Below, piece after piece: positions 4,947 through 47,188 of a stretch of 64,000 nucleotides of DNA (position 1 is its first letter; each line of letters opens with the position of its first letter). Source of the stretch: Archangium lansingense (GTDB lineage: Bacteria > Myxococcota > Myxococcia > Myxococcales > Myxococcaceae); NCBI RefSeq assembly GCF_026626635.1, contig NZ_JAPNKA010000001.1, positions 13,642,001 through 13,706,000 of the forward strand, given 5' to 3'. A model generated the notes under the pieces. The model made no database searches. It was given only the letters and a program-made list of their open reading frames with translations, and was not told the origin of the DNA. The position numbers and the translations under genes are program-made.

Positions 4947-7900
4947 ATGATGGACATTCCCGGTCACACCTTGCGCGGCGCGCTGCGAGCGACGGGCGCG
5001 AATCTTCTCTTCCACGCGGTCTGTGGCTCGGACAACCGGCCCGTCATCGTCAAGACGCCTGCGCAACCCTCGCCCGGTCCGCGCGAGTGGGAGCGCTACC
5101 GCCGCGAGCACGGCATCCTCCAGCGGCTGCGGGAAGTCGGAGGCGTGCCCCGGGTCCATTCCTGCGAGCTCGTCCAGGATCGCCCCCTGCTGCTGTTGGA
5201 AGAGGTGGACGGCGAGCCCCTGTCGCAACGGGTGGGCCAGCGGCTCGAGGTCACCGGTTTCCTGGGGCTCGCCATCTCCCTGGCCTCGACGCTCGGGGAG
5301 ATCCACCGGCGCGGCGTCATTCACAAGGATCTCAAGCCCTCCAACCTCATCCTCACGCCGGAAGGGGAGGGGCGCATCATCGACTTCGGCACCGCCACGC
5401 TGCAGCGGGTGGAGCACGTGGAGTCGGCGGTGCCCCACCTCATCGAGGGGACGCTGGCGTACATGTCTCCCGAGCAGACCGGGCGGATGAACCGGGCGGT
5501 GGACTACCGCACGGACTTCTACTCCCTGGGCATGACGTTCTACGAGCTGCTGACGGGCACGTTGCCCTTCCAGGCGAGGGACGCGCTCGGGTGGTTTCAC
5601 GCGCACCTGGCCAGCCATCCCCAGCCGCCGCACGAGCTCGTCGAGTCCGTGCCGCCGTCCCTGTCCGCCATCGTGATGAAGCTGTTGGCCAAGGTCGCCG
5701 ACGAGCGCTACCAGGGGGCCGATGGGTTGAAGGCGGACCTCGAGCGGTGCCGGGAGCGGTTGCTCCGGGGTGAGCGCGAGCCCTTCCCACTGGGCGAGCA
5801 CGACTTCCCCCACCACTTCCAGATGCCCCAGCGGCTCTACGGGCGAGAGGCGTGCGTCGCCACCCTGCTCGAGAGCTTCGAGCGGACGGCGCGAGGAGGG
5901 CGGCCGGAGCTGGTGCTCGTCAGCGGCTACTCCGGAATCGGCAAGTCGGCCGTCATCCACGAGCTGCACCGGCCGGTGGTGGAGCGGCACGGCTTCTTCC
6001 TGCAGGGCAAGTTCGATCAGTTCAAGCAAGACATCCCCTACGCCACGCTGGCGCAGGCCATCCTCGGGCTGGTGCAGCAGTTGCTCGCGGGCACCGACGA
6101 GGAGTTGGCGGCCTGGCGCGAGCGGCTGCGGGAGGCGTTGGGGGAACACGGCCAGCTGCTGGTGGACCTGGTGCCCCAGCTCGAGCTCGTCGTGGGCCGA
6201 CAGCCGGCCGTCCCCGAGCTGCCACCCGCCGAGGCCCAGCACCGCTTCAACCGGGTCATCGAGAAGTTCCTCGGCGTCTTCTCCCCCCACGAGCACCCGC
6301 TCGTCGTGTTCCTCGATGACCTGCAGTGGGCGGACCTGGCGAGCCTGAGACTCATCCAGCACCTGATCGGCGGCCCGGTGGTGCCGCCCGTGTTGTGGGT
6401 GGGGGCCTATCGCGACAACGAGGTCAGCCCGTCCCACCCGCTGATGCTGACGCTGGAGGAGCTGCGCAAGACGGACGCGTGCATCACCAGCCTCCAGCTC
6501 GAGCCGCTGAGCCTCGCGCAGCTCCAGCAGCTCATCGCCGATGCACTCCCGGGGGCCGGGGAGGACGTGGTCGCGCCACTCTCGGCGCTCGTGCTGGAGA
6601 AGACCGGAGGCAATCCGTTCTTCCTCATCCAGCTCATGGTGACGCTGCACCAGGACGGGTTGCTGGCGCGCCTGCCGGAGGGACGGTGGCGGTGGGATGC
6701 CGAAGGCGTCCGGGCCAAGGGGTACTCCGACAACGTCGTCGACTTCATGGTGGGCAGGTTGCGCCAGTTGCCTGACCCGACCTGGTCCCTGCTGCGCCTG
6801 GCCGCGTGCGTGGGCAATGACTTCGCGCTGCGCAAGCTGGTCATCGTCTCCGGCCTGGAGCCGCTCGAGGTGGAGCGGACCCTGGAGCCGGCGCTCGAGG
6901 AGGGCATGCTGGCGCGCAGCTCACCAGAGGGCTTCCGCTTCCTGCATGATCGCATCCAGCAGGCGGCGCAGGAGCTCATCCCCGAGCAGGAGCGCAAGGC
7001 CGTCCACCTGCGCATCGGCCGTCTGTTATTGGCGAGCCTGACGCCCGAGGAGCTGCGCGAGAAGCTCTTCGACGTGGTGGGGCAGTTCAATGTTGGGGCG
7101 GAGCTGCTCGACACGCCCGAGGAGCGCCTGCGCGTGGCGCGGCTGAATGCCGAGGCGGGTTGGAAGGCTCGCGGCTCGGCGGCGCACCGCTCGGCCATCG
7201 CGTACTTCAAGATGGCCTTCGAGCTGCTTCCCGGAGATCCCTGGACGGCGGACCCGGCGCTCGCCTTCAAGCTGTGTCTGGATTGGGCGGCCAGCGAGCT
7301 GATGAATGGCAACGCCGCCGGGGCGCGCCGGCTGGTGGACGCGCTGCTCACCCGGAGGAGGAGCCCCGCGGACACCTCGGCCGTCTACCGCCTGAAGGCC
7401 CAGCTGTGCATGGGGGCTGGGCAGATCGACGAGGCCGTCTCATGTCTGCTGGAGGGCCTGGAGTCGCTGGGCATGCACCTGCCGCCCCACCCCTCGTGGG
7501 AGGAGGTGGTGGCCGCCCAAGAGGAGGTCGAGGCCCTCATGGGGGAGCGCTCTATCGAGAGCCTCCTGGAGCTGCCCCTGGTGAGCGACCCGGACATGCA
7601 GGCGGTCATCGGGGTGCTGGCCGCCCTGTTCACCCCGGCGTGCTGCACCGACAACAACCTGCTCATCCTTCAACTGTGCCGGGTGGTGTCCCTGAGCCTG
7701 CGGCATGGCAACAGCGAAGCGGCGGTGGTGGGCTACTCCTGGTACGGCCTGGTGCTGGGGCATGTCTTCAAGAAGTACCGGGAGGGCCACGCCTTCGGTG
7801 AGCTCGCCTGCGCGATCGCGGAGCGTCACGGCTTCTCCTCGGCCCGGGGCATGGCGCTCTACAGCCTGCAGATCATCAACCCGTGGACTCGGCCGATGGC

Positions 7901-10232
7901 CCGCTCCCTGGAGCTCATCCGGAGCGCCTTCCATCACGCGCTGCAGGCTGGGGATTTCCAGGTCGCCTGCTATTGCTGCAACCACATCGTCACGGACAGC
8001 CTCATGCTGGGGCATCCCCTGAATGATGTCCATGCGGAGTCGGTCGCCCGCTTCGACTTCGTCCGCAGGGCCGGCTACCAGGACGTGCTGGATGTCATCC
8101 GCAGCTCGCAGCGCTACGTCCAGCAGCTGCGCGGGCTCACGCGCTCATTCGACACGCTGAGTGGTGAGGACTTCGAGGAGGAGGTGTTCGAAGCCGGGCT
8201 CACTTCCGAGCGCATGAGCACCATGCGGTGCTGGTATTGGATCCTCAAGATGCAGGGGCGCTTCATGTGCGGCGCCTACGAAGAGGCACGCATCGCGGGA
8301 GACAAGGCCGCCGAGCTTCTCTGGGCCTCCGTTGGTCACATCCAGCTCCTGGACTTCCACCTCTACCGAGGACTGACGCTGGCCGCGTGTCTGCCGGAGG
8401 CGGCGCCCGAGGTGCGGGAGCGCTGGCTCGAGGAGCTGCGCCAGCACCATCAGCAGCTCGCGGAGTGGGCGAGCCATTGCGCCGGGAACTTCCTCGCGCC
8501 CGAGCGGATACTCTTCGCGGAGCTGGCGCGGGTGACGGGCCGGAGGGAGGAGGCCATGGGCGCGTATGAAGAGGCCATCCACTCGGCCCGGGAGCATGGC
8601 TTCATCCAGAACGCCGCACTGGCATGTGAGCTGGCGTCGAACTACTGGCGCGAGCGGCGCTTCCAGACCATCGCGGAGACGTATGCGCGCTCGGCCCGGG
8701 AGGCCTACCGGCGCTGGGGGGCCCTGGGCAAGGTGAAGCACCTGGAGGCCCGGTGGCCGGAGTTGGTGCTCGTGTCCTCCGGTGGCCGCCACACCTTTGA
8801 CACGGACTCGACGCAGATTGACGCGCTCACCGTGGTGAAGGCGCAGCGGGCCATCTCCGGCGAGATCGTCCAGGAGCGGCTGGTGACCACGCTGATGCAG
8901 GTGGCCATCGAGAACGCGGGCGCCCAGCGCGGTGCCCTGCTGCTCGCGCGGGGTGACACGCTCCGGGTCATGGCCATCTCCGGCGCGTCACCGGAGGACC
9001 CCATCGTCCTGCCACCCGAGGACGCGCAGGCCGAGCTGCCGTGGACCCTCATCGCCTACGTCAAGCGCACGCGCGAGCATGTGCTCCTCGGGGATGCCAC
9101 GCGGGCCCATCCCTTCCCGGCCGACGCGTACCTCCGGCGAGGCCGGGCTCGCTCGGTGCTCTGCCTTCCGCTGCTGCGCCAGGAGGCCCTCTACGGCGTG
9201 CTGTACCTGGAGAACAACCTGGCGGCCGACGCCTTCCCTCCGGATCGCCGCGCGCTGCTGGAGCACATCGCCTCGCAGGCCGTCATCTCCATGGAGAACG
9301 CGCGGCTGTACGCCGATGTCCAGCACGCCGAGGCAGCCCTGCGCCGCGCCAATGACGAGCTCGAGGCGCGCGTGGAGGAGCGGACCCGGGAGCTGAGGGA
9401 GGCCCAGATGCGACTGGTGGACACCGCGCGCGCGGTGGGCATGTCCGAGGTTGCCTCCAATGTGTTGCATAACGTGGGCAACGTCCTCACCAGCGCCGTC
9501 GTCAACCTCGAGGTGATGCGGGAGACGGTGGCCGCGTCACGCCTCGGCCGGCTGAAGCAGGTGTCGGCGTTGTTCGAGGACAACCGCGGGCGCCTGGGGG
9601 AGTTCTTCACCGATGACCCTCGCGGGCTCCAGATGCCGGACTACTTCTCCGCACTCACCGAGCAACTCCTCCAGGAGCAAGCGAAGGTACGCGACGGTCT
9701 GCTGGAGATGGGCTGGCATGTCGAGCACATTCGCACCATCGTCCAGGTACAGCAGAACTACGCCAAGACGGCCCTGCTCATCGACGAGTGCGAGCTGTCG
9801 GAGCTCGTCGAGGACGCGCTGCGCATCCAGATGTCGGCGCTCAAGCGCCACGGCGTCACCGTTACCCGCGAGCTGAAGGTCTCTCGCAAGGTGCGGGTGG
9901 ACCGGCACAAGGTGCTTCAAATCCTCATCAACCTCATCAGCAATGCCAAATACTCCCTGGATGAGATGCCCCCGGGAGAGCGGCAGATGCTCGTGCGCCT
10001 CCAGCTCGAGGAGGGCAAGGCTCGCATCCAGGTGGTGGACAATGGTGTGGGAATCTCGAAAGAGATTCGCGAGCGGCTCTTCGCGCACGGCTTCACCACG
10101 CGCCGGGACGGACATGGTTTCGGCCTGCACTCGAGCGCGCTCGCCGCGAAGCTGCTGGGAGGCAACCTCCTGCTCGACAGCGAAGGCCCGGGAAAGGGCG
10201 CCACGGCCACGCTGGAGCTCCCGCTCCCGTAG
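4947..10232 (+). CDS. Trifunctional Ser/Thr kinase - AAA ATPase/TPR - GAF histidine kinase
   Basis: 1761 residues, with domains in this order. First, a eukaryote-like protein kinase (about 5-270) with catalytic HKDLKPSN at 126-133 and DFG in IIDFGTATL. Second, an AAA_16/STAND-like ATPase with Walker A SGYSGIGKS near 326-334 and Walker B-like VVFLDDLQWAD. Third, a long TPR-like helical region, then GAF (about 1300-1455) and a histidine kinase core with ASNVLHNVGN as the probable phosphoacceptor box. Last, an HATPase with LINLISNAKYSLDE and GHGFGLHSSALAAKLLGG. The frame is open from 4767, but family members start just before the kinase domain, so ATG 4947 (or 4950) is preferred. It probably integrates a signal and feeds both Ser/Thr and His-Asp phosphorylation. 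Confidence 0.92.
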   Translation: MMDIPGHTLRGALRATGANLLFHAVCGSDNRPVIVKTPAQPSPGPREWERYRREHGILQRLREVGGVPRVHSCELVQDRPLLLLEEVDGEPLSQRVGQRLEVTGFLGLAISLASTLGEIHRRGVIHKDLKPSNLILTPEGEGRIIDFGTATLQRVEHVESAVPHLIEGTLAYMSPEQTGRMNRAVDYRTDFYSLGMTFYELLTGTLPFQARDALGWFHAHLASHPQPPHELVESVPPSLSAIVMKLLAKVADERYQGADGLKADLERCRERLLRGEREPFPLGEHDFPHHFQMPQRLYGREACVATLLESFERTARGGRPELVLVSGYSGIGKSAVIHELHRPVVERHGFFLQGKFDQFKQDIPYATLAQAILGLVQQLLAGTDEELAAWRERLREALGEHGQLLVDLVPQLELVVGRQPAVPELPPAEAQHRFNRVIEKFLGVFSPHEHPLVVFLDDLQWADLASLRLIQHLIGGPVVPPVLWVGAYRDNEVSPSHPLMLTLEELRKTDACITSLQLEPLSLAQLQQLIADALPGAGEDVVAPLSALVLEKTGGNPFFLIQLMVTLHQDGLLARLPEGRWRWDAEGVRAKGYSDNVVDFMVGRLRQLPDPTWSLLRLAACVGNDFALRKLVIVSGLEPLEVERTLEPALEEGMLARSSPEGFRFLHDRIQQAAQELIPEQERKAVHLRIGRLLLASLTPEELREKLFDVVGQFNVGAELLDTPEERLRVARLNAEAGWKARGSAAHRSAIAYFKMAFELLPGDPWTADPALAFKLCLDWAASELMNGNAAGARRLVDALLTRRRSPADTSAVYRLKAQLCMGAGQIDEAVSCLLEGLESLGMHLPPHPSWEEVVAAQEEVEALMGERSIESLLELPLVSDPDMQAVIGVLAALFTPACCTDNNLLILQLCRVVSLSLRHGNSEAAVVGYSWYGLVLGHVFKKYREGHAFGELACAIAERHGFSSARGMALYSLQIINPWTRPMARSLELIRSAFHHALQAGDFQVACYCCNHIVTDSLMLGHPLNDVHAESVARFDFVRRAGYQDVLDVIRSSQRYVQQLRGLTRSFDTLSGEDFEEEVFEAGLTSERMSTMRCWYWILKMQGRFMCGAYEEARIAGDKAAELLWASVGHIQLLDFHLYRGLTLAACLPEAAPEVRERWLEELRQHHQQLAEWASHCAGNFLAPERILFAELARVTGRREEAMGAYEEAIHSAREHGFIQNAALACELASNYWRERRFQTIAETYARSAREAYRRWGALGKVKHLEARWPELVLVSSGGRHTFDTDSTQIDALTVVKAQRAISGEIVQERLVTTLMQVAIENAGAQRGALLLARGDTLRVMAISGASPEDPIVLPPEDAQAELPWTLIAYVKRTREHVLLGDATRAHPFPADAYLRRGRARSVLCLPLLRQEALYGVLYLENNLAADAFPPDRRALLEHIASQAVISMENARLYADVQHAEAALRRANDELEARVEERTRELREAQMRLVDTARAVGMSEVASNVLHNVGNVLTSAVVNLEVMRETVAASRLGRLKQVSALFEDNRGRLGEFFTDDPRGLQMPDYFSALTEQLLQEQAKVRDGLLEMGWHVEHIRTIVQVQQNYAKTALLIDECELSELVEDALRIQMSALKRHGVTVTRELKVSRKVRVDRHKVLQILINLISNAKYSLDEMPPGERQMLVRLQLEEGKARIQVVDNGVGISKEIRERLFAHGFTTRRDGHGFGLHSSALAAKLLGGNLLLDSEGPGKGATATLELPLP

Positions 10233-10246
10233 GAGGCGGCCGGAGG

Positions 10247-10270
10247 TCCCCTCTCCCTTTGGGCGAGGGC
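10247..10270. repeat. REP-like palindrome, degenerate copy
   Basis: Short inverted repeat CCCTCTCCC-TTT-GGGCGAGGG just after the stop of the large kinase gene. One arm differs from the window-wide consensus (GGGAGAGGG). It could act as a transcription terminator stem, but no T-run follows. Confidence 0.5.
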
Positions 10271-10318
10271 TACGAGCCCCCTATACGCGTTGCCCCGCCC
10301 TGCTAGTCTCCGGGCGGT

Positions 10319-13300
10319 ATGGCAACCCCATTACACAAGCAACTCCTGGCAGCCTCCGCGTTCGTGGTGCTTGCCCTGGGAGTCGCCGTGGTCTGGGGCG
10401 ACCTTCCTGGCTCGAAGCCCGCGGTGCCGCCCCAGCGTTCCAGGCCCGTTCGTGAGGCGCCCACGCCGCCGCCTCGCGGTGACGGGGCCATCCAGGGAAA
10501 GGTCGTCGCCTGGGACGGCACCCCTGTCGCGGGTGTCGAGGTCTCCGCGACGCTGAGCCAGCCCGGGAAGTCCCTGTCCTCCCTCGCCTGTGAGGGGGAG
10601 TCTCCGAACATCCTTCTGTCCTCTCCCAACTGCGAGGGTGCGCCGAGATGGCAGCTCATCAGGCTCATCGAGCAAGGGCTGGGCGCCGCGCCCGTGGTGG
10701 CGAGGACCACGTCCTCCGCGGATGGGGCCTTCTCTCTCACGGGACTGCCGGATGGAGCCGTCGCGGTCTGGGCCCTGGATGCGCGAGGCGCGAGGGTGGA
10801 GCCTCGCGTGGAAGTGGGCGCCACCGGTGTGAAACTCGTGCTCGGAAGAAGCGCCACCCTCTCCGGCCGTGTCGTGGACGAGGCCAGGCGCCCCCTGCAA
10901 GGCGCGAGCGTGACGCTCTTTCTCGCGGAGCACTCGCGCTACTTCGAGGCGACCACCGATGCACAGGGCCGCTTCTCGCTCGGCCCGCTGCTCGATGGCC
11001 GCCCCCATGGACTCGTCGTCCACCATCCCGACCTGCTGCCCGCGTACGAGTTGCTGTCCTCTCTCCAGGACCTGGGTGATGTGACGCTCCATGCGCCCCT
11101 GCGCCTCGTCGGGCGGGTGCTCGACGGGGAGCACCCCGTCGCCGGCGCGGAGGTCGTGGCCACCGAGCTCGGGCAGTCCGCTCGAACGAGCGGGGACGGG
11201 CGCTTCATCCTCGAGGACATGCCCCCGGGTGAGCACAAGGTGACGGCAAGCACCTCGCGGAAGCGCGGCCACGCCAGCGTGACGTTGGAAGAAGGCTACC
11301 CGGAGGCCACGGTACGCATCGAACTCGGGTCACTCGTCTCGTTCAGCGGCACGGTGAAGGACTCGGAGGAACACCCCATCCCCGACGCCGTGGTCGAGGT
11401 CGAGGGGAGCGACAAAGAGAAGACTCTCTCGGACACGCAGGGACGCTTCACTTTCGAGGCCTTGTCTCCAGGAAACTACAAGGTCACGGTGAGGGCCGAA
11501 GGCTACTCGGACAGACGCTTCCCCCACGTCGCGCCGGCCACGACTCCGACACTGGACGTGGTTCTCAAGCCGACCGCCCTCGTCCGTGGCGTGCTCGTCG
11601 ACACCGAGGGCCATCCCGTGCCGAAGGCCATCGTCCAGCTCGCGGAGAGTGCCGTGGATGAGGACTTCAACACCCAGCTTCCCCCGCCGGAGAAGGTAGC
11701 TGGGAACGATGAGCCTGGCCCCATGGGCGGTATCAACGATCCCCATGAGTCGCGAGTGCACCAGCTCCGCGCGGACGAGAACGGCCGCTTCGCGTTCGAG
11801 CGCGACTCGCCCGGCCGGTTCGCGCTCCGCGTCGATTCGGACCGATGCCTGCCCCTGCAGACCCTCGTGGCTGCGCCAGCCACCGACCTGCGCCTGGTCC
11901 TCCAACCGGGCGCACGGGTGGAGGGACGCGTCGTGGATGCCCAGGGCCTGCCCCTGGCGCAGGTCGAGCTCTCGCTCCATACAGGACTCGACGAGCCGGA
12001 GGTCATCGCGCCCATGGACTCGGACGAGCATGGCCGCTTCGTGCTCGGGGGGATCGCCCCGGGCCACTACATCCTCCTGGCCCGCTTCGACCAGGGAGCC
12101 CCCCACGGCACGACGCTCCCCATCGAGGTCATCGGCACGGAGACGCTCGAGGCCGTGGTACGGCTGGACACCGGACTGAGCGTCTCCGGCATCGTCGTGG
12201 ACGAGTCGAACCGCCCCATTCCCCACGTCCAAATCGAGGCAAAGTCGGCCACGGGGCTCTATGGGCCCCAGGGGGGAGACTCCCCTTCCTCCTCAAAGGC
12301 CATCACGGATGAACAAGGCCGCTTCACGGTGAGGCACCTGCTCCCAGGCCCGTGTGAGCTCGACATCGACATCCCAGGCCACGAGCTGAGCAGGGTGCGC
12401 GCCGCGGGCACCGATTCGAGGGGCAAGCAGCTCGTGGTCCCCGCCGGCTCCACGGACGTGACGCTGACCTTCCGCTACCTCGGGGGAGTCCGCGGGCGTC
12501 TGGTTCACGAGGACGGCACGCCCATCACCTCCTTCTCCATCAACAGCTACTCACATCGGGACCCCCAGGGGGCTTTCCAACAGAACCTCCGCTGGCCAGG
12601 CCCCATCGAGTTGGCCATCTCCGCCCCCGAGCGAACTCCCATCCTGCTGAGCGAGATCGAGGTCGAGCCAGGGCAGCTCAAGGAGTTGGGCGACATCGTC
12701 ATGAAGGCCAGACGGCTGCTGCGCGGCAGGGTGACCCACGCACTGACCGGGGAGCCCATCGAAGGGGCACGGGTCACACGCAAAAGCGCGGACTCGGAGG
12801 GAGAGTTGAGCGGCTTCGGGCGTGACCTCAAGTCCTCCACCGACACCCGTCACGACGGAAGCTTCGAGCTGGAGGGAGTGGAGGCCGATGGCCTCGTCCT
12901 GGAAGTCGAGCTCAACCATGATTCCCCAAAGCACCGCCAACCGATTGGCGCGGGAGACACCTGGGTGGACATCCGGATGACGCCTGGCGCGAGACTGCAG
13001 GGCACCGTGACGGATTCGGAGAGACACCCGGTCGAGACGTCTCTCCTGCTGCTCGCCGACTCATCCGAAGTGCGAGTGCATGACGACATCATCAGCCATG
13101 GGCGTTACGACCTCGATGGGCTCAGCCCGGGAACCTATCTGGTCGTTCCCACCCCGGTGGAAGCCCCAGGGAAGACGCCCATCCGGTTCAAGCCCCAGAC
13201 CGTGGTGTTGGCTTTCGGCTCACGACACGTCCTGAACTTCCAGGCGCAGCGCGGGGACTCCCGGTTGACCCTGCTCCTGTCCGATGAGGAAGGCCCCGCT

Positions 13301-13645
13301 CCCGACGATGAGCGGGTCATCATCGATGACAGGGTGCTCGTCGCGGGTGACCTTCCCCTGCCTGAATTCGAAAGCATGCTGGCGGGAGTGCGCGAGGCTT
13401 TGGAAGTCCCTCTCGATGACGCCTCCGCCTCGAGGCTGTCCGCCGGGCGCTACACCTACTTCCTGTTGGGGACCCGGGGTAAGGATGGCAAGGTCGTCCA
13501 TCGCGAGGTGGTGGACGTGGGCCCGGGAGAAGACATCGTCCGGCGAATCCGTCCCCGGTGGACGCCGATCCTGGCGCGTATACGCATCTACAGACACCCT
13601 TGTCTCCGCAACTGCTCCTACGACGGGTGGGAGTCGGACCCATGA
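10319..13645 (+). CDS. Large carboxypeptidase-regulatory-like (CarboxypepD_reg) repeat protein, exported
   Basis: 1108 residues. The N-terminus MATPLHKQLLAASAFVVLALGV is a signal anchor or uncleaved signal. After it come about ten beta-sandwich modules of the carboxypeptidase regulatory-like type, each with the pattern GxVxDxxxxPlxxAxVxl...tdxxGrFxlxxlxPGxYxlxv (for example SGRVVDEARRPLQGASVTL, EGRVVDAQGLPLAQVEL, SGIVVDESNRPIPHVQIE). No enzymatic domain or sorting motif is visible. Such proteins are numerous in myxobacteria and are presumed periplasmic or surface adhesive/structural proteins. No ribosome site stands out before the ATG. It stands alone between kinase and hypothetical genes. 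Confidence 0.85.
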   Translation: MATPLHKQLLAASAFVVLALGVAVVWGDLPGSKPAVPPQRSRPVREAPTPPPRGDGAIQGKVVAWDGTPVAGVEVSATLSQPGKSLSSLACEGESPNILLSSPNCEGAPRWQLIRLIEQGLGAAPVVARTTSSADGAFSLTGLPDGAVAVWALDARGARVEPRVEVGATGVKLVLGRSATLSGRVVDEARRPLQGASVTLFLAEHSRYFEATTDAQGRFSLGPLLDGRPHGLVVHHPDLLPAYELLSSLQDLGDVTLHAPLRLVGRVLDGEHPVAGAEVVATELGQSARTSGDGRFILEDMPPGEHKVTASTSRKRGHASVTLEEGYPEATVRIELGSLVSFSGTVKDSEEHPIPDAVVEVEGSDKEKTLSDTQGRFTFEALSPGNYKVTVRAEGYSDRRFPHVAPATTPTLDVVLKPTALVRGVLVDTEGHPVPKAIVQLAESAVDEDFNTQLPPPEKVAGNDEPGPMGGINDPHESRVHQLRADENGRFAFERDSPGRFALRVDSDRCLPLQTLVAAPATDLRLVLQPGARVEGRVVDAQGLPLAQVELSLHTGLDEPEVIAPMDSDEHGRFVLGGIAPGHYILLARFDQGAPHGTTLPIEVIGTETLEAVVRLDTGLSVSGIVVDESNRPIPHVQIEAKSATGLYGPQGGDSPSSSKAITDEQGRFTVRHLLPGPCELDIDIPGHELSRVRAAGTDSRGKQLVVPAGSTDVTLTFRYLGGVRGRLVHEDGTPITSFSINSYSHRDPQGAFQQNLRWPGPIELAISAPERTPILLSEIEVEPGQLKELGDIVMKARRLLRGRVTHALTGEPIEGARVTRKSADSEGELSGFGRDLKSSTDTRHDGSFELEGVEADGLVLEVELNHDSPKHRQPIGAGDTWVDIRMTPGARLQGTVTDSERHPVETSLLLLADSSEVRVHDDIISHGRYDLDGLSPGTYLVVPTPVEAPGKTPIRFKPQTVVLAFGSRHVLNFQAQRGDSRLTLLLSDEEGPAPDDERVIIDDRVLVAGDLPLPEFESMLAGVREALEVPLDDASASRLSAGRYTYFLLGTRGKDGKVVHREVVDVGPGEDIVRRIRPRWTPILARIRIYRHPCLRNCSYDGWESDP

Positions 13646-14787: not shown

Positions 14788-14940
14788 GGCTTTCGGCCTA
14801 ACATGGTGGTCAGCAGTTCCTCAAGTGCCAGGCACCTCGTGCGCTGCGCATGCAGTCGTAACGGCCCTCTCCAGCCTTTGTCTTCGCAACGGACGAAGTT
14901 CTTTGTGCAGCTTACCCGTTCTGTTAGGTTGACCAGTGTT

Positions 14941-15894
14941 ATGCGAAACTTCTTACCTCCCCGGTCAACCCTGCTTCTCGCCCTCATGGCGTCCGTCGCC
15001 GTGGCGCGTGGACGCGATCCCAACGTTTGGAGCGCCTACGTTCAGGGTCCCCCGATTGAATCGGTTCGCCGACTGCACGTAACCCCCCATGTAGTGACTG
15101 TGCTCCGGTTCCAGCAGCCCTGTGATGCGGAGGGGACGAAAATGCTGGGGTGGGAAGGTCGCTTCGAGCCGGTGGCGTGTGCCGGAAAGAGGGTGCTGAT
15201 AGAGCCGCTCCAGGTCCTTGGCCCCGAGGACCGATTCCTGTTGGTCGTGAGGCTCGCGGATGGGACTGAAGTGTCCTTCACCTTGATGGGGGCCACCAGG
15301 AAGGAAGGAGAGTGGCCAGACCAACAGGTGAACGTCTTCATCGAACCGGAAACCCGAGAAGCACTCCAATCACAGCTCAAAGAAATCCGCCAGAGGGAGC
15401 GGTTGCTCGAGGAGGCAACCTACCGTCACTACAAAGAGGACACGGCGGACCACGCGCTCGCCAAACTTCTAACGACGGGTGCCATCAATCAAACCTCGTT
15501 CATCGAGCGACGAAAGCGGATCGTCAAGACCGATGACGGGGCCGAAATGGTCGTCCGAATCTTCGCGGGCAAGGAGAAGGCGGCGGTCTTGCTGACTGTG
15601 ACGAACCGCCACCCGTCGAAGCCTTGGAGTCTGGCAGAGGCTCGCCTCCGGACCACCCGCCCAGGAGAGGACCCACGCGCCCCCTTCCTGTTCGGTGAGG
15701 CGAGGCCGTTTGCATTGCGCACGGACCGGGACGAGATTGCTCCAGGCGAATCTGGGAATGTGGCCATCGTCGTGGACAGGAGTGCATTCAAGGCGGATGA
15801 CGGGTTCGTCAAAACCCTCGCGCTGGAGATCTACCGCCAGGACGGGTTCTTGGACACCTACGTCCTCCTGGATCGTCGGCTTGTTCGTGAGTAA
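14941..15894 (+). CDS. DUF2381 family exported protein
   Basis: 317 residues with a signal peptide (MRNFLPPRSTLLLALMASVAVARG). The body matches DUF2381, a myxobacterial paralogous family: an N-terminal beta domain (VTPHVVTVLRFQQPC, EDRFLLVVRLADG), a helical middle (about 130-180) and a C-terminal beta domain ending ALEIYRQDGFLDTYVLLDRRL. The longer frame upstream is discounted because the signal peptide begins here. It is followed after 11 bases by a small lipoprotein gene; elsewhere in this window (40940) a DUF2381 gene is coupled to a Ser/Thr kinase. Probably a periplasmic partner or regulator of that system; molecular function unknown. Confidence 0.85.
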   Translation: MRNFLPPRSTLLLALMASVAVARGRDPNVWSAYVQGPPIESVRRLHVTPHVVTVLRFQQPCDAEGTKMLGWEGRFEPVACAGKRVLIEPLQVLGPEDRFLLVVRLADGTEVSFTLMGATRKEGEWPDQQVNVFIEPETREALQSQLKEIRQRERLLEEATYRHYKEDTADHALAKLLTTGAINQTSFIERRKRIVKTDDGAEMVVRIFAGKEKAAVLLTVTNRHPSKPWSLAEARLRTTRPGEDPRAPFLFGEARPFALRTDRDEIAPGESGNVAIVVDRSAFKADDGFVKTLALEIYRQDGFLDTYVLLDRRLVRE

Positions 15895-40284: not shown

Positions 40285-40812
40285 TCACCTCCTCCGGGAG
40301 GGCGTGGGCGGGCGCGGCGGGGTCATGAGTGTCCAGCCCCTGGCCAGCCAATAGACGCGGCCGTCGCTGTCCAGGGCTCGCTCGAGGAAGTCGGAGAAGG
40401 ACCAGGCGATCTGCGTGCAGCCGGAAGAGCCGGGCCGCGAATCCCGGGAGCAGTCAAAGAGGGAGTGGAGGTCGTGTTCGGCGCGGCGCACGTCGATGGC
40501 GGCGTAGTCCCCGTCCTGCACGGAGCAGAGGACGAACCAGGATGCCGCACCGTACGCGTCGCCATCCCCGGTGCCGCCGAAGAGGGCCACCCGCGCCCGG
40601 ACGATCTCCGATAGAGAGAGAATGCGGTAGGGCGGGTCCGGCCGGCGGAACAGCGCGGCGCCATTGGAGCGCAGGTAGAAGGCGCGCAGCTCCTCATCCA
40701 GACGCCAGCCCATGCGCTTCTCGAAGTGCTGGAGCTGCTCTGGCGAGGCCGGGGGATTGGGGAAGTGGCTGCGACGAATCGCTTCGATGAACCGGTCGAT
40801 GGTCATGGACAT
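40285..40812 (-). CDS. SMI1/KNR4 family protein
   Basis: 175 residues. Typical SUKH/SMI1-KNR4 pattern: PASPEQLQHFEKRMGWRLDE, ELRAFYLRSNGAALFR, YRILSLSEI and SFSDFLERALD. In bacteria such proteins are often immunity proteins to secreted toxins, but no toxin gene adjoins this one; myxobacteria carry many orphan copies. The start is ATG 40812 or 40806. The frame's apparent 114-codon upstream extension is antisense to the DUF2381 gene. Confidence 0.85.
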   Translation of the reverse strand: MSMTIDRFIEAIRRSHFPNPPASPEQLQHFEKRMGWRLDEELRAFYLRSNGAALFRRPDPPYRILSLSEIVRARVALFGGTGDGDAYGAASWFVLCSVQDGDYAAIDVRRAEHDLHSLFDCSRDSRPGSSGCTQIAWSFSDFLERALDSDGRVYWLARGWTLMTPPRPPTPSRRR

Positions 40813-40939: not shown

Positions 40940-41800
40940 GTGAGCCCACGTCCTTGGTCCGCCCTGCTCTGGGTCCTCCTCTTCTCCACTGCGGCCACCG
41001 GGCGGGAGACGAGGCAGGGGACCGTGCTCGTCGCGGGCACCCCGGAGGGAGAGCCGCCCGTGCTGTACGTGGCCGCGCGCCTGTCCACGTTGGTGGACTT
41101 CGAGGGGCTGCTCGAACCGCGAGCGACGCTGACGCCCGAGCTGAGCGGGCGCATCGGGGTGTTTCAGGTGGGAGCGCGCTCCCTGGTGGTGGTGCCCGTG
41201 CGCGACCTGGCGCGGGGCGAGCGCGTGCTGCTGCCGGTGACGGGGCGGACGGAGGCGGGCGAGCCCCGCACCGTGACACTGACGCTCGTCACCCGGGAGG
41301 ACGAGGTGGACTTGCAGGCCCTGGTGTCCTTCCTGCCGCACGAGGCCCGAAGGCCCGAGGCCCCCGAGGAGGACGCGGTGGGCACGGTGGCGGAGATGTT
41401 GCTCGCCAGCCATGAGCGGGGCACGGGCCCGGGGCTGGCGCTCGTCATGCCTGACGAGAGTGAGACGCGCATGCACTCAGGCCCGGTCCGGGGGTGGATC
41501 GAATCCATTCTCCGGATGGATCGGGGACGCCTCTTCGTCACCGTGGCCATCGAGACCACAGGTCTAGCCACTCCTCCATGGCGACTCACCCGGGTTCGGT
41601 TGGAAGCAGGATGCTGGGCCGGTCGCACGGGGGAGGAAGTGCCTCTGCCCATCTTCAGCACCTCCTCCGTGCCTGGTTCAAAGGAGCAACGCCATACCTT
41701 CTCCACCCGACTCCCAGAAGGGGCGGGGTGTCTGTCCTTGATGTTGGAGGAGGACGGCCCGCGGACTTTGCAACTCCAGGACTGGAGACTTCCTCCATGA
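40940..41800 (+). CDS. DUF2381 family exported protein
   Basis: 286 residues from GTG 40940. It has a signal peptide (SALLWVLLFSTAATG), then the DUF2381 body: LEPRATLTPELSGRIGVFQV, DLARGERVLLPVTGR and ending RTLQLQDWRLPP. Compared with the copy at 14941 the helical middle is similar but the sequence is widely diverged. Its stop overlaps the kinase start (ATGA), so the two proteins are made together and probably act as one periplasmic-sensor/kinase unit. Ligand unknown. Confidence 0.87.
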   Translation: MSPRPWSALLWVLLFSTAATGRETRQGTVLVAGTPEGEPPVLYVAARLSTLVDFEGLLEPRATLTPELSGRIGVFQVGARSLVVVPVRDLARGERVLLPVTGRTEAGEPRTVTLTLVTREDEVDLQALVSFLPHEARRPEAPEEDAVGTVAEMLLASHERGTGPGLALVMPDESETRMHSGPVRGWIESILRMDRGRLFVTVAIETTGLATPPWRLTRVRLEAGCWAGRTGEEVPLPIFSTSSVPGSKEQRHTFSTRLPEGAGCLSLMLEEDGPRTLQLQDWRLPP

Positions 41801-43635
41801 CGAAGCCCTTCCACCCGGACCTGCTCCAATCCGGGGACATGGTGCGGCACTACAAGGTGGTGCGCCGTCTGGGCAGCGGTGGCTTCGCGAACGTCTTCCT
41901 GGTGGAGAGTGGAGGGCGGTCCTACACGATGAAGATCGCGGCGCGCCCGCCGGGTGATGAAGACGAGGCCCGGGAGGACGAGCGGGCCTTTCGCGAGGCG
42001 ATCTCCCTGGGGCATTTCCGCCACCCCAACCTGCTGACCGTCCGCGAGCTGGGCCGCTGGCCGGAGCTGGAGGGAGGCCACTTCTTCTTCGTCACCGACT
42101 ACGTTCCCGGCTCGACCTTCAACGTGTGGCGCTGGACGATGCGGGCCCCGCTGTGCCGGTTCATCCGCGTGGCGGGCGAGCTGGCCCTGGTGATGGCGGA
42201 GCTGCACGAGCGCGGCGTGTGCCACCGTGACATCAAGCCTGACAATGTCCTGGTGAGGGACGGGGACGACAAGCCGTTCCTCATCGACTTCGGCGCGGTG
42301 TTCCTGCCTGGGGCGTACACGCTGACGCGGGAGCTGCCCCCGGTGACGTTCCACAACATGCCGCCCGAGGTCGCCGCCTTCCTGCGAGGGGGCGAGTGGG
42401 AGCAGGGCGCGCACTTCCCCGCGAGCCCCGCGGCGGACCTGTACGCGTTCGGTGCCCTGCTCTATGAGGCCCTCACCGACTGCCACCCCTTCAACCCGCG
42501 CCTCCCGTTGGACAAGCTCTTGCTCGCCATCGAGCTCGTCCCGCCGGTGGACCCTGGCCGGTTGGAGCCGCGTGTACCGCCGGGACTGGGCGGGCTGGTG
42601 ATGCGGCTGCTGGCCAAGGACCCCGCTCAACGGCCCCCGAGCGCCAGGGCCGCCCACGAGGAGCTGATGCGGCTGTTGGAAAGCGAGGCGGACACGGAGC
42701 CCTGGAAGGTGCCGTATGCCTTCGCCACGCACGAGGACGGTGTGCCAGCCGTGGAGGCCGGGCAGGAGGAAGCGGGTGGCGCCCGGGAGGCAGCGGAGCC
42801 GCCCTCATCACCCGAGAAGGGCACTCGGGTGTCCGGGTCTGGCGATGCGGAGAGGGAGGCCGGGCGGTCACGCGGGAAGTGGAAGTGGGTGCTCGGAGGG
42901 CTCGCCCTCTTCCTGCTGCTGCTCGGGATAGGGTGGGGACACGTCCGCACGGTGTCCGCGTCCGCCCTGGAGGCGGTGTGTTCCGGCGCGGCGCCCACCG
43001 CGCTGGTTCCGCCAGCGCCCTTCGAGAAAGGATGCGAAGCCTTGCACTTCTCCACGCCGAAGTCTTTTGGAGAAACCCTGACGCTGGTCTGTGCCGCCTC
43101 GGTGCATTTCCTGGCCTGCACGGGAGCGCCCGTGCGCCCCGACCCCGAGGGGTTTCTGGAACGGTGTCCTCCCGAGGCCCGCATGACGGCCGTGCAGCTG
43201 GGCTTCGAGAAGAAGCCCTTCACGGATGTCGAATTGGCGACTGGCATCCAGGTCGGTGCCGGGTCGATTGAAAACGTGATCAACTTCAGAAGCGGTCCCG
43301 TGGAGGGATGGATAGTGATTCCCGGCGGGAGGATCCACTGGGTGACCGGTGAGGCGAGGGTGTATCAGGGGCGCATCTACATGGAGTTCGACCGCATCTA
43401 CCTCGATGCGCTCCACCCGACACCCGGTCGCGTTCCATCACCCCTCTGTGCCGTGGCCGTGGACAACAGGAACTGGAGGAAGCTCGGGGTGAAGAACTTC
43501 GAGCTCGGCATGCCCACGAACATCCAGTTCGCCGATCCGGCCAAGGTGGTGTACCGCGGCCCCGATGCCGCCATTCTCGATACACTCCTGGTGGACACGT
43601 ACGTCCAGCTCCCCGGCCGCCGCTTCCCGGAGTAG
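41797..43635 (+). CDS. Transmembrane Ser/Thr protein kinase
   Basis: 612 residues. The kinase domain (18-290) has Gly loop LGSGGFANV, Lys46 (MKIA), HRDIKPDN at 143-150 and DFG at 164. A Pro/Glu-rich linker follows, then one transmembrane helix (about 366-385, WVLGGLALFLLLLGIGW) and an extracytoplasmic domain of about 220 residues with several Cys. The outer domain's end (PLCAVAVDNRNWRK, ILDTLLVDTYVQL) resembles the lipoprotein at 15906. It overlaps the DUF2381 gene by four bases. It probably senses envelope signals with that protein. Confidence 0.92.
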   Translation: MTKPFHPDLLQSGDMVRHYKVVRRLGSGGFANVFLVESGGRSYTMKIAARPPGDEDEAREDERAFREAISLGHFRHPNLLTVRELGRWPELEGGHFFFVTDYVPGSTFNVWRWTMRAPLCRFIRVAGELALVMAELHERGVCHRDIKPDNVLVRDGDDKPFLIDFGAVFLPGAYTLTRELPPVTFHNMPPEVAAFLRGGEWEQGAHFPASPAADLYAFGALLYEALTDCHPFNPRLPLDKLLLAIELVPPVDPGRLEPRVPPGLGGLVMRLLAKDPAQRPPSARAAHEELMRLLESEADTEPWKVPYAFATHEDGVPAVEAGQEEAGGAREAAEPPSSPEKGTRVSGSGDAEREAGRSRGKWKWVLGGLALFLLLLGIGWGHVRTVSASALEAVCSGAAPTALVPPAPFEKGCEALHFSTPKSFGETLTLVCAASVHFLACTGAPVRPDPEGFLERCPPEARMTAVQLGFEKKPFTDVELATGIQVGAGSIENVINFRSGPVEGWIVIPGGRIHWVTGEARVYQGRIYMEFDRIYLDALHPTPGRVPSPLCAVAVDNRNWRKLGVKNFELGMPTNIQFADPAKVVYRGPDAAILDTLLVDTYVQLPGRRFPE

Positions 43636-43853: not shown

Positions 43854-44795
43854 ATGGTCCTCCCCACGGTCGATCCAGATTGGGAAATCCGCGCCGCCGC
43901 CTTCCAGGCCCTGGAGTGGCTGGTGGCGCGCCACGGGCCGACGTTGAGGTGGGACACCATCCAGGAGGGCTTCGAGTTCAAGGGCCAGCACCTCTACTTC
44001 GCCACCAAGGCGAAAGGCATCTTCCGGCCGAAGGAGATGCGAGGCGCCGCGCTCTCCATCAAGACCATCATCCCGCGGGGCAACCGCCCCGTGCCCTACG
44101 AGGACTCCGCGGGCGAGGACGGTGTCTTCACGTACAAGTTGCGAGGGGACGACCCGGACAATCACGACAACCGGCTGCTTCAGCAGGCGTGGAAGGCGTC
44201 CACGCCGCTGATCTACTTCCTCGCCGTCGAGCCGGGCATCTACCAACCCCTCTGGCCCATCTTCATCCGGGGCATCGATCGAGAGCGTTTGGAGTGCACG
44301 CTCTCCGTGGATGATGCCGCGCTGGCGGAGCGGGAGCAGCGTGTACCGATGGTGGCGGACGCGAGGGCCATTGAGATCCGCCGCGAGTACGTCACGGTGC
44401 AGACGAAGCGGAGGCTGCATCAGGCGCGCTTCCGGCTGGAGGTGCTGAGGGCGTACGAGAAGCGGTGCGCGGTGTGCAGATTGCCTCGGGAGGAGTTGCT
44501 GGATGCGGCGCACATCGTGGCGGACCGTGAGGAGACGGGGGCACCCGTGGTGCCCAATGGGCTGGCGCTCTGCCGGTTGCATCACGGAGTCTTCGACACG
44601 GACCTGATGGGCATCCGGCCCGATGGGGTCATCGAGCTGTCCAAGTCACTGCTCGACACGCGGGATGGCCCGACACTGGAGCACGCGGTGAAAGCCTTCC
44701 AAGGCCAGCACCTCCACCTGCCCCGGCGCATCGAGGACCAACCGGGACAGCGTTTCCTGGAAGAACGGTACGCGCGGTTCCGCCGGGCGGGGTGA
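43854..44795 (+). CDS. HNH endonuclease with N-terminal recognition-type domain
   Basis: 313 residues. The C-terminal HNH nuclease has CAVCRLPREELLDAAHIVAD and NGLALCRLHHGVFD, giving two CxxC-like zinc ligand pairs and the catalytic His of AAHI. The N-terminal ~190 residues (FQALEWLVARHGPTLRWDTI, IFRPKEMRGAALSI, NRLLQQAWKASTPLIYFLAV) belong to a recurrent domain found on such HNH proteins, probably for DNA or modified-base recognition. A modification-dependent restriction role is plausible; no methyltransferase is adjacent. Confidence 0.85.
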   Translation: MVLPTVDPDWEIRAAAFQALEWLVARHGPTLRWDTIQEGFEFKGQHLYFATKAKGIFRPKEMRGAALSIKTIIPRGNRPVPYEDSAGEDGVFTYKLRGDDPDNHDNRLLQQAWKASTPLIYFLAVEPGIYQPLWPIFIRGIDRERLECTLSVDDAALAEREQRVPMVADARAIEIRREYVTVQTKRRLHQARFRLEVLRAYEKRCAVCRLPREELLDAAHIVADREETGAPVVPNGLALCRLHHGVFDTDLMGIRPDGVIELSKSLLDTRDGPTLEHAVKAFQGQHLHLPRRIEDQPGQRFLEERYARFRRAG

Positions 44796-44873: not shown

Positions 44874-45398
44874 ATGGTGGGCTTGCTGGCCGCACGGGTT
44901 CCTCGTCTGGTGGTACTCGTGGGCGTGATGCTGGGGGCTGGGGGGCTGACCGGCTGTGCCACTGGCCGCAACACCGTCACCGGCCGAATCACCCCGGCGC
45001 ACTTCGAGTTCACCAGGGTGGTAGAGAAGTCGGGGCCGGAGGATGAACCGGGTGGGTGGTGGGCGGTCTGCATCCACGCTCGAATCACGGCGGGGGACTC
45101 GGGAGCCACTAGCGTCTGCCAGTTCGAGGTTGGCGTGCCGGTGCATAACAGATTTCAGGGAGAAATCTCTCTGGAGGTTGCCCAGGAGGCGGCAGCAGCC
45201 ATGGCTAACCGGGCCATGTACAAGGTTCTGTCGCAAGCCCATCCGGGGGAAGTGCTTGGTATCCACTGCCGCAGATTCAAGGACCTCTACGTGCTGATGC
45301 TCGACGAGAAGCTCAAAGGTGCGCGGGTGAGGCAGTGCATGATGAAGGGCGTGAAGACCGTGCACTTCAACGAGCCCTATCATTGTGACTATGAGTGA
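44874..45398 (+). CDS. Putative lipoprotein paired with gp25-like gene
   Basis: 174 residues. It has a lipoprotein signal ending AGGLTG-C (Cys28). The mature part has five more Cys (CIHARI, SVCQFEVG, IHCRRF, RQCMMKG, YHCDYE) and is otherwise unfamiliar. It starts 78 bases after the HNH stop and ends 31 bases before the gp25-like gene on the same strand, so these two may act together at the envelope. The family is not recognised. Confidence 0.75.
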   Translation: MVGLLAARVPRLVVLVGVMLGAGGLTGCATGRNTVTGRITPAHFEFTRVVEKSGPEDEPGGWWAVCIHARITAGDSGATSVCQFEVGVPVHNRFQGEISLEVAQEAAAAMANRAMYKVLSQAHPGEVLGIHCRRFKDLYVLMLDEKLKGARVRQCMMKGVKTVHFNEPYHCDYE

Positions 45399-45429: not shown

Positions 45430-46521
45430 ATGAAGAAGCCGAGTACGTACAAGGCCCTCACGCAACCTCTTCCCATCGACGCCGTCGGTCCCGATGGCAA
45501 GAAGCGGCCCATTCAGCTCTTTCCCAAGGTGGGTGCCCTCAAAGACCCTGGGCTGGGTGCGTTCAAGGTGCACCTTCCGTATTTTCTCGGGAATCGACGT
45601 GGTGACAGGCTCGAGGACCCTGATTTCGGCAGCTCGCTTCATGTGCTCCTCGATATGGAGGACGAACAGCAGCGTGCCGAGTTTGTCCGCCGAGTGGTGC
45701 ATGAGGAAATCCCCGGGAGGTTTGGCAAGTACCTCGAGGCCATCCGGTCCTTTGATGTCACCGTGCACCCCGAGGCGCGCACGATGCAGGTGTTCCTGGA
45801 GCTGAAACCTCACGGGGCAGAGTGGGTCTCGTTGAGCTTCGAGCTGCATTTTCCTCTAGAAGAGCAGGGCGGGAGCCGGGAGCCGGCCAGGCCTCGTCCA
45901 CGTCCCGAGGCCATGAGCGATCCCCGGACCGCGGAGTTCATCCGCGTTGCACGGCACTACTACCCGGCGGGCTATCCCCCCTGGGAGGACGACGAGGAGG
46001 AAGAACCCGCCTTCCGACGGACGCCCGAGTACCAGCGGTGGCGCGAACTCCGGGATAAGGCCTGGGATGATTGGAAGGAGTGGGTTGATTTCCTGCGGGC
46101 TGTGCGGTCCACGTTCCCCGGGCACCCTGTTTCTGATGTGACGTATCCCTCGGCGGATGCCTGCTCCCGCTGCTGCGTGTATCTGGAGCAGCCGTTGCCG
46201 GATGGAGGACGGGTGGTGACCCGGGTGGTGGGGGCTGTCTCCATCCTCGCGCCGCTGTACCTCGTCTACGTGACCACGGAAACGGTGCGGCCCGATGTCA
46301 CCTCCCCCCGGCCGCCACCCGACTTCTCCCCCACCGGTGAGGCGAAGGCCGCAGCGGGCACGCTGGCCCGGCTCATCGAGCAGGTGTTCGGCTATCGGCC
46401 CTTCCCGCTGGAACTGGCCGACGTCCCCCTGCCGGAACTCCGGGTCGAGTCTCTGTACGAGCCTCCCACGCTCCTCGGGGCCTTCTTCGCGGACCGGGGC
46501 ACGCTGGCGAACCTGCCCTGA
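45430..46521 (+). CDS. gp25-like (phage/T6SS baseplate) domain fused to unknown C-terminal domain
   Basis: 363 residues. Residues 45-140 show the gpW/gp25 baseplate pattern: GNRRGDRLEDPDFGSSLHVL, FVRRVVHEEIPGRFGKYLEA, SFDVTVHPEARTMQVFLEL. These proteins are the TssE/gp25 wedge components of contractile systems. The usual ~130-residue protein is extended by ~200 residues with an acidic stretch (EDDEEEEP) and a Cys-rich part (DACSRCCVYLEQPLPDGG). No sheath, tube or spike genes are nearby. It may be a modulator or immunity-type derivative of a contractile system; this is inference. Confidence 0.68.
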   Translation: MKKPSTYKALTQPLPIDAVGPDGKKRPIQLFPKVGALKDPGLGAFKVHLPYFLGNRRGDRLEDPDFGSSLHVLLDMEDEQQRAEFVRRVVHEEIPGRFGKYLEAIRSFDVTVHPEARTMQVFLELKPHGAEWVSLSFELHFPLEEQGGSREPARPRPRPEAMSDPRTAEFIRVARHYYPAGYPPWEDDEEEEPAFRRTPEYQRWRELRDKAWDDWKEWVDFLRAVRSTFPGHPVSDVTYPSADACSRCCVYLEQPLPDGGRVVTRVVGAVSILAPLYLVYVTTETVRPDVTSPRPPPDFSPTGEAKAAAGTLARLIEQVFGYRPFPLELADVPLPELRVESLYEPPTLLGAFFADRGTLANLP

Positions 46522-46558: not shown

Positions 46559-47188
46559 ATGCCTCCGCTTGCTCTCAGGAAGGGGCCAGGTCCCTTCCGT
46601 AAATGGCTCTTCGTGGGCCTGGGTGTCTCCACCTTCGGCCTCTACGGCATGGCCTTCGTGGTGGACCGCTTTGGCCAGCACGAGCGCGCCGTCCCCTCCG
46701 ATGTCCTGGTGGTGCTCGGGGCGCGTGTGCTTCCCGGCGGCGAGCCCTCTCCCTCTCTGCGCGCTCGCATCGAGAAGGCAGTCGAGCTCTACCACCAAGG
46801 ACTCGCTCCCCGGCTCCTCTTCTCCGGCGGCGTGGGCGTCAACCCGCCCTCCGAGGCCCGTGTCATGCGCGACCTCGCGGTGCGGCTCGGCGTCCCCGCG
46901 GAGGCGTGTCTCCTGGAGGAGCAGAGCCACTCCACCGAGCAGAATGCGCGCTTCTCCACCGGCATGCTGCGCTCGCTCGGCGCCCGGCGCGTGGTGGTTG
47001 TCTCCGACCCGTACCACCTGCTGCGTGCTCGCCAGTACTTCCGGCTCCATGGCTTCGAGGTGGTCACCAGCCCCGCCTACCTCACCGAGCGCAACATGAA
47101 TCTCGTCGACCGCATCTACTGGACGGTGCGCGAGGCCGCCGCGTTGCTCCTCCATCCCACCGTGCTGTTCGCGCGCCAACCCTCCTGA
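46559..47188 (+). CDS. YdcF/ElyC family (DUF218) membrane-anchored protein
   Basis: 209 residues. One N-terminal transmembrane segment (KWLFVGLGVSTFGLYGMAFV), then a DUF218 domain: DVLVVLGARVLPGGEPSPSL, LLFSGGVG, TEQNARFSTGML and VVVVSDPYHLLRARQYF. SanA/ElyC members act in envelope integrity and undecaprenyl-phosphate carrier metabolism; the exact role here is unknown. ATG 46559 begins the family-like N-terminus, and the longer frame overlaps the gp25 gene. Confidence 0.87.
   Translation: MPPLALRKGPGPFRKWLFVGLGVSTFGLYGMAFVVDRFGQHERAVPSDVLVVLGARVLPGGEPSPSLRARIEKAVELYHQGLAPRLLFSGGVGVNPPSEARVMRDLAVRLGVPAEACLLEEQSHSTEQNARFSTGMLRSLGARRVVVVSDPYHLLRARQYFRLHGFEVVTSPAYLTERNMNLVDRIYWTVREAAALLLHPTVLFARQPS

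Follow-up and report, generated by a model that had tools for sequence, protein, structure and literature searches.

SitA proteins of the SitA/SitI kin-discrimination modules are described as carrying an escort domain of about 375 aa ahead of the toxin, and SitA3 of M. xanthus as carrying a toxin of the CdiA_C family (PMC8546572). The gp25-type fold is described as an antiparallel three-stranded sheet with two long helices and one small helix (PMC3352280). The same source reports that an EPRL motif is conserved in gp25-like proteins and that the substitution E105A within EPRL abolishes T6SS secretion in P. aeruginosa (PMC3352280). The locus analyzed here holds a member of an apparently undescribed, expanded cassette of social myxobacteria, composed of a lipoprotein (Lip) and a cytosolic partner (C). 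As with kin-discrimination genes, its alleles replace one another and accumulate in tandem, and in one lineage the Lip-C cassette has gained a fused phage-tail baseplate fold.

The window, by which we mean the whole stretch of 64,000 nucleotides of Archangium lansingense DNA that was analyzed, comes from a genome of 13.8 Mb and carries an ATG-initiated gene for a 363-aa fusion protein, gp25-C, on the forward strand (45430..46521, +). A gp25-fold domain (residues about 40-142; 45547..45855, +) preceded by a conserved N-terminal arm is joined to a C domain (residues 162-363; 45913..46518, +), which starts at a retained Met and corresponds to an ancestral stand-alone, immunity-like protein. Full-length relatives of the fusion occur in genomes G001, G003 and G008 and a broken copy in G004, and the named records that encode it are Archangium violaceum Cb vi76 and the metagenome-assembled Archangium sp. 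SZUA-606. The lipoprotein that the initial annotation had placed ahead of this reading frame proved real and is a conserved partner: the Lip gene (44874..45398, +) comes first, ends 31 nt before the gp25-C gene, and encodes 174 aa with the lipobox LTGC and Cys28, and 23 members of its family were aligned. The pair lies in a variable locus bordered by genes for an HNH restriction-type nuclease (43854..44795, +) and a DUF218 protein (46559..47188, +). The HNH nuclease is related, below the NCBIfam cut-off, to phosphorothioated-DNA restriction enzymes; in G003 (locus L051) it is found at 12691-13632 with a second, partial copy at 14935-15303. Also near the variable locus are a SUKH (SMI1/KNR4) immunity-type gene (40285-40812) and a DUF2381 and protein kinase pair (40940-41800 and 41797-43635).

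The N-terminal domain of gp25-C has a gp25 fold, a conclusion on which hhalign, the match between a structure model and the PDB, and profile searching agree, and the gp25 relationship first proposed from the reading frame is borne out for residues ~40-142. Five N-domains aligned by hhalign with 36 gp25 proteins, drawn from the window's own genome and related ones, gave a score of 37.8 over 94 columns (Prob 84.8, with an E-value that is that of a single comparison and a shallow query profile of Neff 1.5), far above the maximum of 21.1 over 300 column shuffles; the reversed alignment scored 12.2 and the C half 13.2. A template-free AlphaFold2 model has helices at residues 40-57, 70-74 and 79-101 and strands at 102-113, 118-127 and 133-140, which is the element order of gp25, and it contains the three-stranded antiparallel sheet, two long helices and small helix of the gp25/TssE fold, at low confidence (4-row alignment; overall pLDDT 45; domain core about 54-67 with one block at 44). 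When this model was searched against the PDB with Foldseek, the top three matches were all T4 gp25 (5iw9/5iv5), with prob 0.99-1.00 and E about 0.03, which is above 0.001. The N-domain profile, searched against 195 Myxococcota genomes, found as its best non-fusion match a 126-aa gp25 (E 0.0012) and a second gp25 at E 0.044; twelve entries were neither fusions nor fusion fragments, and the open frames read for six of these comprised two gp25 proteins, the best match included, and four that look unrelated. Single-sequence scans of gp25-C returned no Pfam and no NCBIfam family at E<=5, a PHROG scan gave baseplate wedge at E=0.13 only, and a PF04965 search of the window's own genome matched seven other genes, gp25-C not being among them. 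No meaningful match came from searching PDB sequences with profiles of N, C and Lip. The two gp25 proteins nearest to the window's domain are encoded, together with Baseplate_J and an injector OB domain, in the cluster of a tail-like particle (L165 in G048 and L166 in G144), which points to the source lineage of the domain.

The sequence of the gp25 domain and its genomic position both set it apart from gp25 proteins of contractile machines. Twenty-nine of the 36 comparison gp25 proteins contain EPR (the seven without it include L113, a misframed 46-residue stretch), and the residues aligned with it by hhalign in gp25-C are L102-E103-A104 (45733..45741, +), of which L102 and A104 are identical in all four complete fusions. 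The gp25 loop motif RRGDRLEDPDFGSSL (residues 56-70; 45595..45639, +) is retained. The domain has kept its fold and lost its EPR motif, and since this motif is missing, it is probably impossible for the gp25 part to start a sheath. The genome contains four strong TssC matches (2.93, 7.45, 9.32 and 10.84 Mb) and three phage-sheath matches (7.47, 11.44 and 12.99 Mb), and each of its seven gp25 genes lies within 13 kb of a TssC or phage-sheath gene, so that every machine recognized by a strong sheath match has a gp25 of its own. The gp25-C gene lies 680 kb from the nearest gp25 gene, and the window has no match to PF05943 or PF04984, so the description of the gene as an orphan with no baseplate or sheath gene nearby stands. 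A weak fifth TssC-like ORF at 1.376 Mb in the same genome was rejected as a partner for gp25-C that lacks its own gp25, since it is isolated and its surroundings contain no gp25-like ORF. A conserved lone TssC (VipB)-like ORF of about 540-590 aa lies outside any contractile cluster at locus L181 of the window's genome (15800-17428) and in G001, G003, G004 and G008; the neighborhoods read, those in the window's genome and G001, hold no gp25-like ORF.

The C-terminal part of the fusion is the older protein. By tblastn, residues about 155-363 correspond to a stand-alone family of about 200 aa, with matches in 27 of 116 genomes, the window's own included, where there are 11 other C loci (12 further matches, two of which are one broken copy). 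Among 195 Myxococcota genomes searched with a C profile, 42 had the protein, representing 7 of 90 genera, all of one bacterial family, with up to 14 matches per genome; on these counts the C family appears to be restricted to Myxococcaceae, lineage-specific and multi-copy. Decayed copies with stops or frame changes were also seen. The initial annotation had described a 200-residue extension of gp25: it is indeed fused to gp25 and foreign to Pfam, but it is not an appendage of gp25, as C is ancestral and gp25 the late addition. Of the features noted within it, the acidic stretch and the cysteine cluster are both present, but the former (residues 185-193) is a loop of variable length and the latter is not invariant in the family, C245 and C248 being constant across four fusions and absent from the nearly invariant columns of 50 C family members. 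A Pfam scan of 50 C members at E<=1 found no immunity family, and Imm52, considered as the identity of C, was found in none of the 50 and set aside. The structure model of C is confident (pLDDT 93.8) and describes an alpha+beta protein; a PDB fold search with this model gave no clear match, the best Z of 6.7 perhaps reflecting only a common arrangement. C proteins start without a hydrophobic leader. A role for C as immunity to AHH SitA toxins was also rejected, as none of the 28 AHH matches in the window's own genome has a C gene near it (nearest about 15 kb).

Pairing with Lip was assessed for 72 C genes that were near-complete, had at least 750 nt of upstream sequence and were distinct in sequence, all others being dropped; the loci were taken from the best matches and are therefore not a random sample. 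A Lip ORF lies on the same strand within 800 nt upstream of 59 of these genes, and 13 of the 72 are without one. The commonest Lip-C spacing is a 4-nt overlap (18 genes), and the three widest (506, 514 and 521) belong to gp25 fusions. C is normally a stand-alone protein whose gene is translationally coupled to the Lip gene ahead of it. Lip proteins are about 150-180 aa long in the family, and a Pfam scan of 23 members found no relevant domain and no toxin domain. An association of the lipoprotein pair with T6SS loci, which had been anticipated, was not seen in the neighborhoods read: by eye, most Lip-C pairs sit singly among ordinary genes, and no PAAR or nuclease genes were recognized beside most of them, some neighbors also having been scanned with Pfam.

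Several loci show alleles of the cassette exchanged within conserved surroundings. In a locus that we take to be Myxococcus-like, the Lip-C alleles of G041 and G063 differ, with identities of about 60% for C and about 69% for Lip, while their flanks match at 94-98% identity save for one gene at 89%. Comparison of L065 (G066) with L064 (G063) and L067 (G041) found both alleles in tandem in G066 (5458-8006), separated by a copied 89-aa 3' end of the upstream DnaK-like gene, while the two sisters hold one allele each. At the window locus, Lip and gp25-C are present together in the window's own genome, G001 and G003, and neither is present in G005; G004 has a broken fusion with no Lip detected beside it, and G003 has two more C genes and a transposase. 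The fusion is missing from this locus in two of six same-genus genomes. In G002, a sister species (L174, 8177-10023), the locus is occupied by a 455-aa lipoprotein whose CdiA_C toxin domain (PF18451, E=1e-18) begins at residue 373, followed by a 138-aa gene, a SitA-type lipoprotein toxin and its neighbor gene thus standing in place of Lip and gp25-C. G004 has a TIR-DUF3427 protein here (L052, 8765-10327) and G001 a PLD/helicase/DUF3427 protein of type IV restriction-like character (L050, 6865-9627), and these variable neighbors suggest that the window locus is a defense hot spot. With its alleles swapped and stacked in conserved flanks, its turnover and the SitA-type pair at the window locus, Lip-C resembles in its gene organization the modules by which these social bacteria tell self from non-self.

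Elsewhere in the window's own genome, at L146 (5763-8505), a SitA-like HNH lipoprotein gene and a second gene, presumably of DUF2019 type (labeled by eye from its likeness to a Pfam-named protein at L066), have a C fragment on one side and a complete C gene on the other, an arrangement resembling the insertion of a toxin cassette into an array of C genes. Since the genome has 41 SitA-like matches, a single SitA neighbor of C is not significant alone; from these 41 and about 12 C loci, the chance of one such neighbor was estimated at about 0.15. Locus L066 of G015 (7969-13479) contains a gene for a 472-aa protein with no Pfam hit, a pentapeptide-like gene, a transposase, Lip, two C genes and a DUF2019 gene, and looks like a decayed toxin/immunity island.

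The gp25 domain was inserted once, in an Archangium-type lineage and in frame to C. In a tree of 50 C proteins, the C domains of all five fusions cluster together (support 98/86, 96% of bootstrap trees), and this single clade together with the spacing pattern shows a single entry of gp25, at a point between Lip and C. The estimated dN/dS is 0.16-0.29 for the gp25 core and 0.21-0.37 for C (six pairs from four genomes, the G003 row carrying its stop codon), so that the gp25 domain has been kept by selection and C is under purifying rather than diversifying selection. Within the gp25 part, the fusions keep the RRG..P.xG loop as well as an N-terminal arm of 30 residues. Loss of EPR with selection retained fits the earlier suggestion of a repurposed baseplate part. 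The G004 fusion is broken by a frame change between its gp25 and C parts.

Our preferred reading, held tentatively and at rather less than an even chance, is that gp25-C is the cytosolic, immunity-like half of a polymorphic Lip-C cassette and that its gp25 domain serves as a docking or decoy module. The first gene of this Myxococcaceae two-gene polymorphic cassette would make a small lipoprotein and the second a cytosolic alpha+beta protein, and the cassette would most likely operate on the principle of SitA/SitI kin discrimination, with a cytosolic immunity-like partner matching a variable lipoprotein, while not being a member of that system. The gp25 domain inserted and fused in frame to C is closest to the gp25 of a myxobacterial contractile-tail particle with Baseplate_J; probably unable to start a sheath, it may bind baseplate partners and so place C at, or mask, a contractile baseplate. 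The Lip-C part of this reading rests on organization, allele behavior and one positional swap, and the gp25 part on the fold and on selection with a lost motif; the role of C in immunity, the identification of Lip as the source of whatever C responds to, and continued binding of baseplate partners by gp25 are inferences. Several observations point the other way: Lip has no toxin domain (Pfam, 23 members) and is far too short for an escort domain, C matches no immunity family and no clear PDB fold, no C gene of the window's own genome lies near an AHH toxin, its single SitA neighbor is not significant alone, 13 of 72 C genes are without Lip, and C is under purifying selection. The initial annotation had offered a protection factor as one possible role for gp25-C; given the immunity-type behavior of the cassette this is plausible, with contractile weapons as a putative target. 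The fuller proposal, that a gp25 fold was lifted from contractile machines, relieved of its sheath motif and reused as a targeting or decoy module by which a new two-gene cassette sends its immunity-type protein to baseplates, whether of phages or of contractile weapons, we regard as unlikely.

Other readings account for parts of the same evidence. The gp25 domain might be only a stabilizing or spacer module, the fusion acting like stand-alone C and perhaps also being made from the old C start; this is somewhat unlikely, and it would explain why Met162 is retained in 5/5 fusions inside an otherwise variable linker, preceded by GAGG or something like it in the window's own genome, G001 and G004, as well as the loss of EPR and the absence of the fusion from two of six same-genus genomes, but it sits poorly with a gp25 part selected about as strongly as C, loop and 30-residue arm included. 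A lost EPR with a kept fold is the expected look of a dominant negative, and gp25-C could accordingly act as a decoy, becoming incorporated into the baseplate of an incoming contractile phage, tailocin or eCIS and disabling it, with C as effector or regulator of this defense. The surrounding hot spot, with its TIR-DUF3427 protein (G004), type IV restriction-like helicase (G001) and HNH nuclease (window), suits this proposal, which we nevertheless judge quite unlikely, as PADLOC found nothing in gp25-C or Lip and the commoner C proteins, which have a lipoprotein and no gp25, would be left unexplained. Lip-C might instead be unrelated to conflict, consisting of a lipoprotein of the envelope and a regulator or chaperone in the cytosol, and have expanded in social myxobacteria: Lip without a toxin domain, C without an immunity family hit, and the many pairs lying singly among housekeeping genes with no toxin gene are all compatible with such a role, which is made distinctly doubtful by alleles swapped and stacked in conserved flanks, by the SitA-type pair that replaces the fusion at the window locus and by decayed copies with stops or frame changes. 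Finally, the four strong TssC and three phage-sheath loci offer potential hosts in which gp25-C might function as the wedge subunit of the cell's own T6SS or eCIS, with C as an added domain, but every strong-sheath machine already has a gp25 within 13 kb of its sheath gene, the fusion gene lies 680 kb from the nearest of them, and EPR is missing where the reported E105A change in EPRL breaks P. aeruginosa T6SS secretion (PMC3352280), so that this role is highly improbable.

If gp25-C binds baseplates, as the docking or decoy reading supposes, gp25 would here be serving away from any contractile machine and would connect two weapon systems of these bacteria. The C family also provides, in about 50 proteins, a natural allele test set for self/non-self recognition.

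Compared with gp25/TssE (HsiF) proteins of PF04965, the N-terminal domain shares fold, element order, an RxG..PxFG loop and profile similarity; it differs in that EPR has become L-E/D-A, in lying outside a contractile cluster, in being fused to C, and in falling below any Pfam threshold. As SitA/SitI, toxin-immunity modules of outer membrane exchange marked by transfer and killing that depend on TraA/TraB, are described (PMC5562445, PMC8546572), Lip-C resembles them in the order of a lipoprotein gene and then a cytosolic partner and in its many alleles per genome, whereas Lip (174 aa) has neither the escort domain of about 375 aa nor a known nuclease domain (PMC8546572). The Toxin1-4/Imm1-4 genes of M. 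xanthus, in the account of PMC12077131, are likewise multi-copy homologous immunity-type genes within one genome, and their toxin genes are each reported to pair with a T6SS PAAR gene (PMC12077131), unlike most Lip-C pairs, beside which none was recognized. Literature searches covering titles and abstract openings of open-licence PMC papers turned up neither the fusion nor the Lip-C cassette. gp25 folds and polymorphic lipoprotein/immunity pairs are both known, while the Lip and C cassette families and their fusion to gp25 appear to be new.
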